Assembly: GCA_030447865.1 (NCBI GenBank)
Contig: JAUJOD010000002.1
Location: forward strand, 477,702-520,372
Length of the DNA: 42,671 bases
Reading direction: 5' to 3'
Source of the DNA: Nocardioidaceae bacterium
Lineage (GTDB): Bacteria > Actinomycetota > Actinomycetes > Propionibacteriales > Nocardioidaceae
Part shown: positions 33,825-39,479 of the stretch, one piece after another
Numbering within the stretch: the stretch's first letter is position 1
Layout of the letters: every line of letters starts with the position of its first letter
The notes under the pieces: generated by a model
The model's input: only the letters and a program-made list of their open reading frames with translations
Database searches by the model: none
Told to the model about the DNA's origin: nothing
Program-made: the position numbers and the translations under genes

Positions 33825-34781
33825 GTGAGCGCACCGGTTGTCGAGACGACGAACCTGCGCAAGGAGTACCGCACGCGGCAGAGCAGTGTTGTAGCGGTGA
33901 AGTCACTATCGCTGCGCATCCCGAGCGGCGGCGTGCACGGCTTCCTCGGGCCCAACGGGTCGGGCAAGACCACCACGATCCGCATGCTGCTCGGCCTGGC
34001 CCGGGCGTCGAGTGGGAGCATGCAGCTGTTCGGCCAGGATGTGCCCGCGCACCTGCCCGATGTGATGGGCAAGGTTGGCGCGATCGTCGAGCAGCCGAAG
34101 TTCTTCGGCAACTTCAGCGGGCGCAAGAACCTGGAGCTGCTCGCCGATGCCATCGGCGTGCCGCATTCCCGCATCGACACGGTTCTCGACGAGGTGGGAC
34201 TGCGGGACCGTTCCGGCGACCGGTTCAAGTCCTACTCGTTGGGCATGAAGCAACGGTTGGCGATCGCGGCGACGCTGCTCAAGCAGCCGCAGCTGCTGAT
34301 CCTCGACGAGCCCACCAACGGTCTCGATCCGGCTGGTATCCGCGAGATCCGCGACATGATCCGACAACTGGGTGACTCCGGTGTGACTGTCATGCTCAGC
34401 TCACACATCCTCGCGGAGGTCCAGCAGGTCTGTGACCACGTGTCGATCATCGGCCGCGGCGAGCTGCTGGCCAGCGGCAGCGTCGACGAGGTGATCGGCG
34501 AGTCCGGCAGCGGGGTGAAGGTCGGTCTCCCCGACCTTGAGTCGGGCGCGGCAGTACTGACTAGCCACGGTTACGCCGTACGGCGCGAACCCGGCTACCT
34601 GGTCGTCGACGGCGTCAACGACAACGCCGCCATCACCAAGCTGCTCGCCGATTCCGGCCAGTACGTCAGCGAGCTCACCTCGGTCCGGGCTGACCTTGAG
34701 TCGGTGTTCCTTGAACTGACCGGGACCACCCCCGACGGCGCTCTCGCTGCCGACGCCACCCGCGGAGGTGCCGCGCCGTGA
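33825..34781 (+). CDS. ABC transporter ATP-binding protein (ABC-2 type exporter)
   Basis: 318 residues. Walker A GPNGSGKT at 42-49, signature YSLGMKQR at 137-144 (degenerate LSGGQ form common in drug/lipid exporters), Walker B LLILDE at 157-162 followed by PTNGLDP, and the switch His in SSHIL. The C-terminal 90 residues form the usual regulatory extension. It starts at GTG 33825 after a 169-bp gap holding TACCCT as a possible -10. Its stop overlaps the permease start (GTGA). Substrate unknown; the placement between lipB and lipA may be chance. Confidence 0.93.
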   Translation: MSAPVVETTNLRKEYRTRQSSVVAVKSLSLRIPSGGVHGFLGPNGSGKTTTIRMLLGLARASSGSMQLFGQDVPAHLPDVMGKVGAIVEQPKFFGNFSGRKNLELLADAIGVPHSRIDTVLDEVGLRDRSGDRFKSYSLGMKQRLAIAATLLKQPQLLILDEPTNGLDPAGIREIRDMIRQLGDSGVTVMLSSHILAEVQQVCDHVSIIGRGELLASGSVDEVIGESGSGVKVGLPDLESGAAVLTSHGYAVRREPGYLVVDGVNDNAAITKLLADSGQYVSELTSVRADLESVFLELTGTTPDGALAADATRGGAAP

Positions 34782-35719
34782 GGCTGTTCAGGGTGGAGGT
34801 ACGGCGCCTCTTCAGCCGGCGCGCCGTCATCGTCATGATGGTCCTGGGTGCCTTGGCGGTCGGCGCGATTGCAGCCGGTGTGCTGTACGAGAACCGGCCG
34901 GCATCTGCAGCGGAGCTCGCGCGGGCGGACCGTCAGGTCGACCAGTACAACCAGGAGCCGTGGGTCCAACGGCCGCTTGCCCGGTGCGTGGAGAAGACGG
35001 GTGACGTTGAGCGCTGCGAGGCCCGCTGGCTGCTGACGCCCGACAACTTTTACGGCCGCGGCCAGCTCCAGCCGGCGCAGTACAAGCCGTGGTTGATCTC
35101 GATGACCGGCGTTGTGGCTGCGCTCGGGCTGCTGATCGGGGCGACGTTCGTCGGTGCCGACTACATCTCCGGGTCGATGGGCACCCAGCTGCTTTTCGAG
35201 CCGAACCGGCGCAAGGTCTGGTTGGCAAAGGCAGGTGCGGCCGTCGTCGGCGTCGGTCTCTTCTCGGCGGTGGTGCTGTTGCTCGGCAACGGTGCCATGT
35301 GGGTCTTCGCGAAGTCGTGGGACAGACCGATCCGCCCCGGGCTGCTCGGCGACTATGTCGCCGCCGGCGGACGCGCTGTGCTGCTCGCCGCCGTGGCGGG
35401 TCTGGCCGGGTACGCCCTGGTGATGGTCGCGCGGCACACCGCGGCCGTCCTCGGCCTACTCGCCGTCTACGGCATCGCCGGTGAGGCCGTGCTGCGCAAC
35501 GTGTGGGCAGGCAGCGAGAAGTGGCTGTTCTCCAACCACGCGTTCGCGTGGATCGGCGGCGACTTCAAACGCCGGATCTATCCCTCGGACTGCTACGACG
35601 GATGCCGTCCAGAGATCGTCCACTTCACCCAGCAGTTCGCCGCCACATACGTCGGTGTCGGCCTGCTAGCGGTGGCTCTTGCTTCCCTGCTGGTGTTCTT
35701 CCGCCGCGACGTCGCCTGA
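34778..35719 (+). CDS. ABC-2 type transporter permease
   Basis: 313 residues, about six membrane helices: the first near the N-terminus (AVIVMMVLGALAVGAIAAGVLY), followed by an extracytoplasmic loop of about 80 residues with two cysteines (RCVEKTGDVERCEARW), then GVVAALGLLIGATFVGADYISGSMGTQLLFEPNRRKVWLAKAGAAVVGVGLFSAVVLLL and three further helices. GADYxxG is typical of ABC-2 permeases. A second cysteine pair (SDCYDGCRPE) lies in the last loop. It is coupled to the ATPase by a four-base overlap. Confidence 0.88.
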   Translation: MRLFRVEVRRLFSRRAVIVMMVLGALAVGAIAAGVLYENRPASAAELARADRQVDQYNQEPWVQRPLARCVEKTGDVERCEARWLLTPDNFYGRGQLQPAQYKPWLISMTGVVAALGLLIGATFVGADYISGSMGTQLLFEPNRRKVWLAKAGAAVVGVGLFSAVVLLLGNGAMWVFAKSWDRPIRPGLLGDYVAAGGRAVLLAAVAGLAGYALVMVARHTAAVLGLLAVYGIAGEAVLRNVWAGSEKWLFSNHAFAWIGGDFKRRIYPSDCYDGCRPEIVHFTQQFAATYVGVGLLAVALASLLVFFRRDVA

Positions 35720-35742: not shown

Positions 35743-36684
35743 ATGACGATCGCCGCGGAGGGACGACGGATGCTGCGCCTGGAGGTGCGCAACTCCGAAA
35801 CACCGATCGAGAAGAAGCCGGCCTGGATCAAGACCCGCGCGAAGATGGGCCCGGAGTACCAGCAGCTGCAGAAGCTGGTGAAGACCGAGGGCCTGCACAC
35901 GGTCTGCCAGGAGGCTGGCTGTCCCAACATCTTCGAGTGCTGGGAGGACCGGGAGGCGACATTCCTCATCGGTGGAGACCAGTGCACCCGGAGGTGTGAC
36001 TTCTGCCAGATCGACACGGGCAAGCCGGCGGATCTTGACGTCGGCGAGCCGCGGCGCGTCGCCGAGAGCGTGCAGGCGATGCAGCTGCGATACGCGACAG
36101 TGACCGGCGTCTGCCGCGACGACCTGCCCGACGAGGGAGCCTGGTTGTACGCCGAGACGATCCGGCAGATCCATCAGCTCAACCCTGGCGTGGGCGTGGA
36201 GATGCTCGCACCCGACTTCAGCGGAAACCCAGACTTCCTGGGGCAGCTCTTCGACGCTGCGCCAGAGGTCTTCGCCCATAACATCGAGACAGTGCCGCGC
36301 ATTTTCCGCCGCATCCGGCCCGGCTTTCGCTACGAGCGCTCCCTGGAGGTCATCGGGGCCGCTCACAGCGTTGGCCTGGTGACGAAGTCCAACCTCATCT
36401 TGGGCATGGGCGAGACCAGATCAGAGATCACCGGAGCCCTGGAAGACCTCCGCGCCGTCGGAACCGACCTGGTCACGATCACGCAGTACTTGCGACCCTC
36501 GCTGCGTCATCACCCGATCGAGCGATGGGTGAGGCCTGAGGAGTTCGTCGAGCTTCGCGACGAGGCCACCTCCCTCGGCTTCGCCGGGGTCATGAGCGGA
36601 CCCCTGGTGCGGTCGTCGTACCGCGCCGGTCGGTTGTACCAGCAGGCGCTAGAGTCACGCCGGCCAGCCGACCTGAGCCACTGA
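35743..36684 (+). CDS. lipA: Lipoyl synthase
   Basis: A radical-SAM enzyme inserting two sulfurs into octanoyl groups. 313 residues. Both cluster motifs are intact: auxiliary cluster Cys55, Cys60, Cys66 ([12 protein letters not shown]) and radical-SAM Cys81, Cys85, Cys88 (CTRRCDFC). [27 protein letters not shown] and the C-terminal [11 protein letters not shown] (with the RSSY cluster ligand) complete it. It acts after LipB on SucB and the glycine cleavage H protein. ATG 35743. Confidence 0.97.
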
Positions 36685-36732: not shown

Positions 36733-37446
36733 ATGGCCCGCAACGCATCCAAGCCGAAGAAGCAGGGCGGCCTCAGCAAGCTCCGCGCCGCCTACCGGAT
36801 GACCAAGGAGCACGACAAACACATCGGGTTGATCTGCTTGGCTTGGTTCCTGGGCGTCGGCTTGCTCGTGGGTCTCCCCGTCGGCTGGTTCTTCCACTGG
36901 GCCGCCGGTGTCGTGCTCGGCCTTCCGTCAGGCTGGCTGGCCGCTTTGGTGGTCTTCGGACGCCGCGCTCAGAACTCGGCGTACGCCCAGGTCGAGGGAC
37001 GGCCGGGCGCCGCCGCCGCCGCGCTGAGCGTGCTCAAGCGAGGCTGGCAGGTGCAGCCGGCGGTGTCGGTGACCAAGAACCAGGACCTGGTGCACAGAGT
37101 GGTCGGACGACCGGGTGTCATCTTGGTCGGGGAGGGCAATCCCGGTCGGGTGCGCAACCTGCTGGCCGTGGAGAAGAAGAAGCACGCACGCGTCGTCGGA
37201 GAGGTGCCGATCTACGACCTAGTGGTGGGCGAGGACGGTGACGGCGCTCTCCCCGTCAAGCGGGTCGCCAAGCACATCATGAAGCTGCCGCGCAACATCG
37301 CTCCCGCCGACGTCACCGACCTGCTGCAACGGCTGAAGGCACTCGACGCGATGCGTCCGCAGGTGCCGATCCCGAAGGGCCCGATGCCCACCAGCATGAA
37401 GCAGGCCAGATCCGCGATGCGCGGCCCCACCCCCCGCGGCCGCTGA
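36733..37446 (+). CDS. DUF4191 membrane protein
   Basis: A conserved actinobacterial protein that regularly follows lipA; function unknown. 237 residues: basic N-terminus (MARNASKPKKQGGLSKLRAAYRMTKEHD), two membrane helices (about 32-50 and 56-75), then a soluble domain with GRRAQNSAYAQVEGRPGAAAAAL, RGWQVQPAVSVTKNQDLVHRVVGRPGVILVGEG and PVKRVAKHIMKLPRNIAPADV. ATG 36733 lies 48 nt after lipA and is probably cotranscribed, though TAGATC 7 nt upstream hints at an extra start. Confidence 0.88.
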   Translation: MARNASKPKKQGGLSKLRAAYRMTKEHDKHIGLICLAWFLGVGLLVGLPVGWFFHWAAGVVLGLPSGWLAALVVFGRRAQNSAYAQVEGRPGAAAAALSVLKRGWQVQPAVSVTKNQDLVHRVVGRPGVILVGEGNPGRVRNLLAVEKKKHARVVGEVPIYDLVVGEDGDGALPVKRVAKHIMKLPRNIAPADVTDLLQRLKALDAMRPQVPIPKGPMPTSMKQARSAMRGPTPRGR

Positions 37447-37452
37447 CCCACG

Positions 37453-37878
37453 TCACCGCTGGAGCACGATGGAGTCAACGGCGAGGTCGTGCAAGCCCTG
37501 CCGGTCGCGGTTGTAGACGATCGGCGGGATCACCGCGCAGATCAGCGCGGTCCGGGCCAGCGCCCTGAGCAGGTCGAGCGGTCGTCCAGACGTACGCCGT
37601 ACGGTCACGCGGCAGATCAACTGACCCGCCGAGCCCCCGAGGAACGTCGTGAGCACCCAGGTCTCCAGCGCGAAAACGGCCAACGGTACCCATTGCCCGC
37701 CGCCTGGCGCGGTCCACACGCCCTGGCCGAGAAGAGCGCTGGACGCAAGCAACGACAGCAGCCAATCGATGCCCAACGCGAGGACCCGGCGTCCCCAGCT
37801 CGCCACTGCTCCCGGACCCGACTCGGGCAGGCCCCGCCGCTGGCCGGGATAGCCCTGCTCGTCCGGCCCTGGCTCCAC
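37453..37878 (-). CDS. RDD-family membrane protein
   Basis: 141 residues with about four membrane helices. The RDD signature is degenerate but present in [20 protein letters not shown]; the C-terminal half has [33 protein letters not shown] and [18 protein letters not shown], both usual. RDD proteins include sodium/proton antiporter-like members; role here unknown. GTG 37878 is chosen because TACGTT (minus, 37886-37891) is 7 nt upstream; a TTG at 37887 falls inside the promoter. It is divergent from glnA and its -10 overlaps the GlnR box. Confidence 0.85.
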
Positions 37879-37885
37879 GCGGCGC

Positions 37886-37891
37886 AACGTA
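37886..37891 (-). promoter_or_regulatory. -10 element of leaderless RDD gene
   Basis: TACGTT on the minus strand, 7 nt before GTG 37878. It shares bases 37889-37891 with the first half-site of the GlnR box, so GlnR bound for glnA could block this promoter. Confidence 0.5.
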
Positions 37892-37926
37892 ACACGCAGG
37901 AAACACAGCAGACATGGCGGGGAAAC
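37889..37926 (+). promoter_or_regulatory. Two-site GlnR box upstream of glnA
   Basis: Half-sites GTAAC (37889), GAAAC (37900), GACAT (37911) and GAAAC (37922) are each separated by exactly 6 nt, matching the actinobacterial GlnR pattern gTnAc-n6-GaAAc twice. The first pair fits fully, the second is weaker in its GTnAC half. The box is centred about 41 bp upstream of the start of transcription inferred from TAGCAT (37937-37942), the usual position for activation. Confidence 0.7.
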
Positions 37927-37936
37927 CGCCGCTCCA

Positions 37937-37942
37937 TAGCAT
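37937..37942 (+). promoter_or_regulatory. -10 element of glnA
   Basis: TAGCAT (TAnnnT) predicts a transcript start near 37949 and a leader of about 47 nt ending in a strong GAAGGAGG ribosome site. No -35 consensus is seen, as expected if GlnR activates. Confidence 0.5.
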
Positions 37943-37995
37943 GTAGTCCACCAGCTCGGCGCTCTTCAGACGCCGCCAGCACCGAAGGAGGAAAG

Positions 37996-39420
37996 ATGTT
38001 CGCCGACCGAGACGAGTTGCTGAAGTTCATCCAGGACGAGCGCGTGGAGTTCGTCGACGTCCGCTTCTGCGACCTGCCCGGAGTCATGCAGCACTTCACC
38101 GTTCCGGTGTCGTCTTTCGGGCCGCCCGTCTTCGAGGAGGGCCTCAACTTCGACGGCTCGTCGATCCGCGGCTTCCAGGCGATCCACGAGTCAGACATGG
38201 CGCTGTTCCCCGACCCGACCACGGCGTACCTCGACGCGTTCCGGGCCGACAAGACGCTGGTGGTGAACTTCTTCATCCACGACCCGCTCACCGGTGAGGC
38301 CTACAGCCGCGACCCCCGCAACATTGCCCGCAAGGCGCAGACATTCCTCAAAAGCACGGGCATCGGAGACACCGCGTACTTCGCGCCGGAGGCGGAGTTC
38401 TACGTCTTCGACGACGTGCGGTTCGAGACCAAGCAGAACACCGGCTTCTACTCCATCGACTCCGTCGCGGGCGCGTGGAACACCGGTCGCGAGGAGGTTG
38501 GAGGCAACCGCGGCTACAAGGTGAAGTACAAGGGTGGCTACTTCCCGGTGCCGCCCGTCGACCACTTCGCCGATCTGCGAGCGGAGATCTCCCGCGAGCT
38601 GGAAGCCGCCGGGCTTCTGGTCGAGCGGCAGCACCACGAGGTCGGCACGGCCGGTCAGGCCGAGATCAACTTCCGGTTCAGCGACCTGATGACCTCCGCC
38701 GACAACGTGATGAAGTTCAAGTACATCGTCAAGAACGTCGCCTGGCGCAACGGCAAGACGGCAACGTTCATGCCGAAGCCGATCTTCGGCGACAACGGCT
38801 CCGGCATGCACTGCCACCAGTCGCTGTGGGCCGACGGTGAGCCGCTGTTCTACGACGAGGCGGGGTACGCCGGCCTGTCCGACACCGCGCGGTACTACAT
38901 CGGCGGGCTGCTGGCGCACGCCCCCTCTCTGCTCGCCTTCACCAACCCCACCGTGAACTCCTACCACCGGCTCGTGCCCGGGTTCGAGGCGCCGGTCAAC
39001 CTCGTCTACAGCCAGCGGAACCGGTCAGCGTGCATCCGCATCCCGATCACCGGCGCCAGCCCCAAGGCCAAGCGCATCGAGTTCCGCTGCCCGGACCCTT
39101 CCGCCAACCCCTATCTGGCATTCTCCGCGATGTTGCTGGCGGGCATCGACGGCATCAAGAACAAGATCGAGCCGCCACAGCCGATCGACAAGGACCTCTA
39201 CGAGCTTCCGCCAGACGAGCACGCCGACGTACAGACCGTGCCAGCGACGCTGACCAAGGTGCTCGACACCTTAGAGGCCGACCACGACTTTCTGCTCGAG
39301 GGTGGTGTCTTCACACCCGACCTGATCGAGACCTGGATCGACTACAAGCGCCAAAACGAGGTGCTTCCGATCTCCTTGCGCCCGCATCCACACGAGTTCG
39401 AGCTCTACTACGACATCTGA
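37996..39420 (+). CDS. glnA: Glutamine synthetase type I
   Basis: Main ammonium-assimilating enzyme: glutamate + NH3 + ATP to glutamine. 474 residues, the GSI-beta length. Landmarks are the N-terminal [30 protein letters not shown], metal-binding [66 protein letters not shown] and [15 protein letters not shown]. Tyr402 in [11 protein letters not shown] matches the adenylylation site, so control by GlnE is expected. ATG 37996 has AGGAGG about 5 nt upstream; a much longer open frame upstream is antisense to the RDD gene. The last 21 bases before ATC TGA recur at 41079 with one change. Confidence 0.97.
39394..39414. repeat. Direct repeat in the glnA 3' end (possible attachment site, left)
   Basis: The 16-nt core GAGTTCGAGCTCTACT followed by one variable base and CGAC recurs at 41079-41099 in the same orientation (20 of 21 identical). 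Similarity ends abruptly on the 5' side, as for a crossover core rather than a decayed gene. Confidence 0.7.
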
Positions 39421-39435
39421 CGTCGTCGCAAACCC

Positions 39436-39479
39436 AAAGGGGCCTCTGACCTGCATGTTTGCAGGCTCAGGGGTCCTTT
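39436..39479 (+). terminator. Rho-independent-type terminator after glnA
   Basis: Hairpin starting AAAGG and ending CCTTT around a tetraloop TGTT, with an inner CCTGCA/TGCAGG stem and a bulged middle. It starts 16 nt after the glnA stop; two further T-poor bases follow. Strong enough to stop transcription in GC-rich DNA. Confidence 0.75.

Follow-up and report, generated by a model that had tools for sequence, protein, structure and literature searches.

A predicted GlnR box upstream of glnA shares bases with the predicted leaderless promoter of a divergent RDD-family gene in a lineage of Nocardioidaceae

The locus lies in a 42,671-nucleotide stretch of a Nocardioidaceae genome (hereafter the window, meaning the whole stretch of DNA that was analyzed) and centers on two divergent genes. 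On the forward strand, glnA (37996–39420, ATG at 37996) encodes a type I glutamine synthetase of 474 aa (TIGR00653, 666.7 bits) and is preceded by an AGGAGG ribosome site at 37986–37991. On the reverse strand, the gene at 37453–37878, with a predicted leaderless GTG start at 37878–37876, encodes an RDD-family membrane protein (PF06271, 35.3 bits with a cut-off of 24.1). Its convergent neighbor on the forward strand is a DUF4191 gene (36733–37446; PF13829, 261.8 bits), for which a match was found in 190 of 197 family genomes, and beyond it lies lipA, encoding lipoyl synthase (35743–36684, forward strand; TIGR00510, 329.5 bits). Directly 5' of lipA is a gene for an ABC-2 type membrane permease (34778–35719, forward strand; PF12679, 29.6 bits). 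Just 3' of glnA, a GC-rich hairpin followed by a run of T's is seen by eye at 39437–39479 (forward strand) and is likely the glnA terminator. Further along the same strand, the segment 39592–40931 carries a nucleotidyltransferase domain (PF01909, 47.2 bits) and then a HepT-like match under the cut-off (21.2 versus 23.5 bits); it looks like a minimal nucleotidyltransferase/HEPN pair whose second member is perhaps incomplete or frameshifted. Of the 30 loci from a first search of relatives, 20 had the DUF4191, RDD and glnA genes together inside 1.5 kb flanks, and a scan of genome contigs with the RDD protein gave 2 loci, one of them from a distant relative at 40% identity. The RDD protein of this gene pair has no role that we are aware of.

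Between the two start codons we found a predicted double GlnR box (37889–37926, forward strand), recognized by its sequence and conservation and composed of the half-sites GTAAC (37889–37893), GAAAC (37900–37904), GACAT (37911–37915) and GAAAC (37922–37926), with every gap being 6 nt and a period of 11 nt. A review gives the a-b-a-b consensus of the Streptomyces coelicolor glnA promoter as gTnAc-n6-GaAAc-n6-GtnAC-n6-GAAAc, reports DNase I footprints of GlnR on that promoter and a cryo-EM complex in which four GlnR DNA-binding domains are arranged head to tail, and includes Nocardioides sp. JS614 among the actinomycetes with predicted GlnR sites (PMC10704036). Our box agrees with 16 of the 18 consensus letters. 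A pattern modeled on the site and allowing up to 2 mismatches matched once in the window versus 0.01 expected, and a match was obtained in 1 of 100 shuffles. With a slightly looser pattern, the box was the sole exact match in the whole 3.1 Mb genome; this pattern gave 6 matches in total (the exact one and five with 2 mismatches) versus 7 for a reversed-pattern control, so the inexact matches are regarded as background. These search patterns were composed after the site was known, while the a-b-a-b consensus is a published one (PMC10704036). Conservation of the box in relatives is evidence independent of these post hoc patterns.

Out of 120 family genomes drawn, 108 yielded glnA, and the upstream DNA was taken for all 108. 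A box was present in 100 of these, 99 of which carry at least 14 of the 18 consensus letters; one further locus with 13 letters (L143) was retained manually in view of its suitable position and spacing, and another with 13 letters in an improbable place (L118) was left out. No convincing box was found in 8 of the 108 loci (L106, L108, L116, L118, L119, L122, L132 and L144). As controls, the best scores ranged from 9 to 12 when the letters of each upstream stretch were shuffled once and from 9 to 14 on the opposite strand, where scores are partly raised because GTNAC reads identically both ways. At the class level glnA was found in 57 of 59 genomes, and the best box reached 13–18 letters in 29 of 29 loci, a figure drawn from the best matches with the source locus excluded and without a shuffled control; two of these loci (L177 and L179) duplicate family genomes, and in three others (L189, L191 and L204) the glnA start was left unadjusted and the codon given is no start codon. 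The divergent RDD-glnA pair with an intervening GlnR box is thus present well beyond the source genus.

The genome also encodes candidate regulators. It contains 8 Trans_reg_C matches, and two of the corresponding proteins were compared with solved structures. The best matches of the first (L003) were 8hih (E 3e-89) and 8hig (E 2e-82), both of which we take to be GlnR structures, followed by 4o1h, labeled GlnR (E 1.5e-28), ahead of the MtrA structure 2gwr (4e-26). The genome therefore encodes a GlnR-like regulator. The second protein (L007) is MtrA-like, its best match being MtrA 2gwr with E 2e-103. MtrA could accordingly be the main occupant of the box, or a competitor there, and the switch would then report the cell-envelope or developmental state besides nitrogen; binding of MtrA to GlnR boxes was reportedly described by Zhu et al. 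in 2019, and according to the review there are cases of competition between MtrA and GlnR, with GlnR being decisive (PMC10704036). Set against this, the four-half-site a-b-a-b form fits GlnR at glnA in the account of the review (PMC10704036). We regard MtrA as an improbable main occupant or competitor here. The box thus resembles that of S. coelicolor glnA, as far as described there, in its four half-sites, 6-nt gaps, position upstream of glnA and an encoded GlnR-like protein. By homology, we consider the assignment of the box to GlnR and the regulation of glnA by GlnR near certain. The presence of GlnR at glnA is well documented for other actinomycetes, a GlnR site situated between two divergent genes is a known kind of arrangement, and the box itself is ordinary. 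Apart from the regulators, no ammonium transporter (PF00909) match was detected in the genome, rated 97.8% complete, while all 14 control genomes matched; we did not expect this in a bacterium with GlnR.

Downstream of the box, the predicted glnA -10 element, TAGCAT (37937–37942, forward strand), lies 10 nt from the last half-site and 53 bases from the ATG, placing the inferred transcription start at about 37949. This spacing is kept in relatives: a TAnnnT hexamer sits exactly at +10 from the box in 90 of the 100 boxed family loci and at +11 in 5, and TACGTT occupies the glnA -10 position in 17 of the 100.

The divergent RDD gene appears to have a promoter of its own. Its predicted -10 element, TACGTT (37891–37886, reverse strand), lies 7 nt before the GTG at 37878–37876, and visual inspection showed no ribosome site ahead of this start. 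A TTG at 37887 was considered as an alternative start and ruled out on account of its overlap with the -10 and, again on visual inspection, its lack of a ribosome site. No sigma-70-type promoter was called within 37700–38200 in either direction. The RDD gene was found in 101 of the 108 family loci, on the reverse strand in 99 of them, and was not found in the remaining 7. Two loci (L093 and L141) depart from the divergent order, with the RDD match on the forward strand like glnA. Among the 93 loci with RDD on the reverse strand and a box, 90 carry TAnnnT upstream of the start codon at a distance of 6 nt (55 loci), 7 nt (34 loci) or 8 nt (1 locus), and no leaderless call was made in three (L066, L098 and L102). 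Seven other A/T hexamer patterns occurred at the RDD start in 0–12 of the 93 loci, a comparison that favors TAnnnT since frame and start were taken from the TAnnnT call. At the class level, RDD lay on the reverse strand within the flank in 22 of 29 loci and a leaderless call was made in 20. The call closest to the box is 16 nt from it, whereas four lie more than 500 nt off and may belong to other genes. Altogether, a leaderless RDD promoter at TACGTT is likely.

Alternatively, the RDD transcript may start upstream inside glnA, partly antisense to it, and TACGTT would not be the RDD promoter. We take SCO2197 of S. coelicolor to be an ortholog of the RDD gene. In that species, mapping identified the glnA antisense transcript as2198/cnc2198.1 with the 5'UTR of SCO2197, which provides a precedent, and overexpression of cnc2198.1 lowered GlnA by 40% (PMC5775266). 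However, the occurrence of TAnnnT followed by a start codon 6–8 nt later in 90 of 93 family loci and the apparent lack of a ribosome site before the GTG both speak for the leaderless promoter, and the two promoters could coexist; we regard a start within glnA as the sole origin of the transcript as unlikely.

Having placed both promoters, we examined how they meet at the box. The bases 37889–37891 are common to half-site 1 and the predicted RDD -10, a feature by which the source genome differs from the S. coelicolor glnA box as published. Assuming a 17-nt spacer, simple arithmetic places the RDD -35 region at 37914–37909, overlapping half-site 3, with half-site 2 inside the spacer. The predicted start points of the two genes are about 70 bp apart, so that two polymerases probably could not be accommodated at once. 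An earlier note on this DNA had described the overlap, and its account of four half-sites with exact 6-nt spacing, of a box just upstream of the TAGCAT -10 of glnA and of an outermost half-site sharing bases with TACGTT was borne out, while the divergent leaderless promoter that it predicted is supported by the same arrangement in relatives.

Judging from this geometry, we propose the following mechanism. When nitrogen is short, four GlnR subunits would bind head to tail on 37889–37926 and, as conservation and published work in other genera suggest, recruit RNA polymerase to the glnA -10 located 10 nt downstream. In the overlap lineage, the leaderless RDD promoter, provided that it is the one used, would have its -10, spacer and expected -35 under half-sites 1, 2 and 3, respectively. 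GlnR, or polymerase held at glnA, should then exclude polymerase from the RDD promoter, so that RDD would be transcribed mainly with GlnR off the site. We assign this model as a whole, with glnA switched on by GlnR and RDD transcribed mainly when GlnR is absent from the site, a probability of roughly 0.55. The part concerning the RDD gene, namely that GlnR lowers its transcription in the overlap lineage, is about even to slightly favored on the geometry. Given the long 5'UTR of SCO2197 antisense to glnA, a second RDD promoter could escape such a block.

We then asked how widely the overlap itself is distributed. Among 90 measured family loci, the distance from the RDD -10 to the box is -3 (overlap) in 5 and 6–155 nt in 85, with 36 nt being the commonest value (14 of 90). 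The five comprise the source genome, G002 and G065 (both g2), G058 (g10) and G003 (g3). The one relative from the source genus (G001, g1) has the same promoter letters together with an RDD reading frame that is broken in the assembly (L012, L066), which may reflect a sequencing error or early gene loss. The overlap was thus seen only in six genomes from 4 genera, namely the source and five relatives, and its geometry is the same in all of them. A 39-nt overlap pattern requiring GTAAC and GAAAC matched 1 of 394 class genomes, the source itself, the five overlap relatives being outside that draw. When the same pattern was applied to 15 selected near relatives, 5 of them gave a single match apiece and there were 0 control matches; out of the ten that did not match, seven had no glnA match (G010, G017, G039, G041, G046, G049 and G055) and three (G016, G022 and G052) have the RDD -10 at 11–20 nt from the box. 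The overlap is a lineage-specific variant of a widespread divergent pair, a local variation, and probably the derived state since the RDD -10 lies apart from the box in 85 of the 90 loci. A tree of 96 RDD proteins requires two overlap changes on the best tree and one in 49% of bootstraps; a single origin is allowed by this tree and neither shown nor excluded. Our literature search found no paper on the overlap of a GlnR box with an RDD -10 and none joining the RDD family with GlnR. The earlier note had called for a check of conservation and had linked the RDD protein to nitrogen status. The box (100 of 108) and the leaderless RDD promoter (90 of 93) proved to be conserved; the overlap is shared by genomes of 4 genera and absent from 85 of the 90 measured loci, and with overlap in 6 genomes only, no general link of RDD to nitrogen follows.

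The six overlap sequences show no variation in TACGTT, in the GTG or in 18 of the 20 half-site bases. For comparison, the adjoining RDD codons have 55 invariant columns out of 150, the gap ahead of the glnA -10 has 0 out of 10, and in the glnA -10 hexamer only T1, A2 and T6 are invariant. Taking this 37% as background, a run of six unchanged bases ahead of the box has a probability close to 0.002, and the figure for the three -10 bases outside the box is about 0.05, so that selection on the RDD -10 itself is only modestly supported; the sequences are, besides, related. A helical phasing of the RDD -10-to-box distances was also considered and rejected, as the resultant was 0.14–0.22 at periods of 10–11.5, lower than the 0.28–0.31 at 8, 9 and 13.

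As to the reason for the overlap, genome compaction is a serious rival. Across 21 genera, with rounded sizes and no correction for kinship, smaller estimated genomes have the box closer to both RDD (Spearman 0.52, p 0.015) and glnA (Spearman 0.65, p 0.0014), indicating that both flanks of the box shrink, and the overlap looks like the endpoint of this trend. As a by-product of compaction, the box would serve glnA alone, the RDD promoter would merely touch half-site 1, and RDD would be weakly and constitutively transcribed with little effect of GlnR. Mycobacterium tuberculosis Rv2219A, presumably the RDD ortholog, bears on this point. GlnR peak 20, shown by ChIP-seq and gel shift, lies between Rv2219A and glnA1, much as the predicted site of the source genome lies between its divergent gene and glnA, and Rv2219A is listed in Table 2 as 'Not Sig' in the glnR mutant, i.e. 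not GlnR-responsive (PMC4950008). Unlike in the source genome, the divergent transcription start (2487478) is about 90 nt from the peak center (PMC4950008). Speaking against a mere by-product, 6 genomes from 4 genera preserve the geometry exactly although nearby RDD codons diverged, and physical exclusion should follow from the overlap whatever its cause. We consider a mere by-product possible, if on balance doubtful.

Published data on GlnR help to delimit promoter exclusion at the RDD gene. The unaltered Rv2219A in the glnR mutant of M. tuberculosis counts against it (PMC4950008). The tables for Streptomyces venezuelae (PMC3087709) and Mycobacterium smegmatis (PMC3662644) name glnA alone at the glnA site. 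In S. venezuelae, GlnR occupies glnA at all time points (PMC3087709), and any RDD repression would on this model be constitutive and not a switch. That a single GlnR site can act in opposite directions has a precedent in M. smegmatis, in the divergent pair MSMEG_1078 (-3.8) and MSMEG_1079 (+3.4), genes other than RDD and glnA (PMC3662644, Table 1). If RDD is repressed by GlnR in the overlap lineage, its product is probably not needed under nitrogen limitation. A lineage whose RDD promoter slid onto the GlnR site offers a natural experiment on the compatibility of RDD and glutamine synthetase expression. A farther-reaching reading draws on the undetected ammonium transporter and the one exact double GlnR box, double boxes being what was searched: GlnR may have shrunk towards a local toggle that renders glutamine synthetase and RDD mutually exclusive, with RDD as a protein of nitrogen sufficiency. 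We offer this only as a rather unlikely conjecture.
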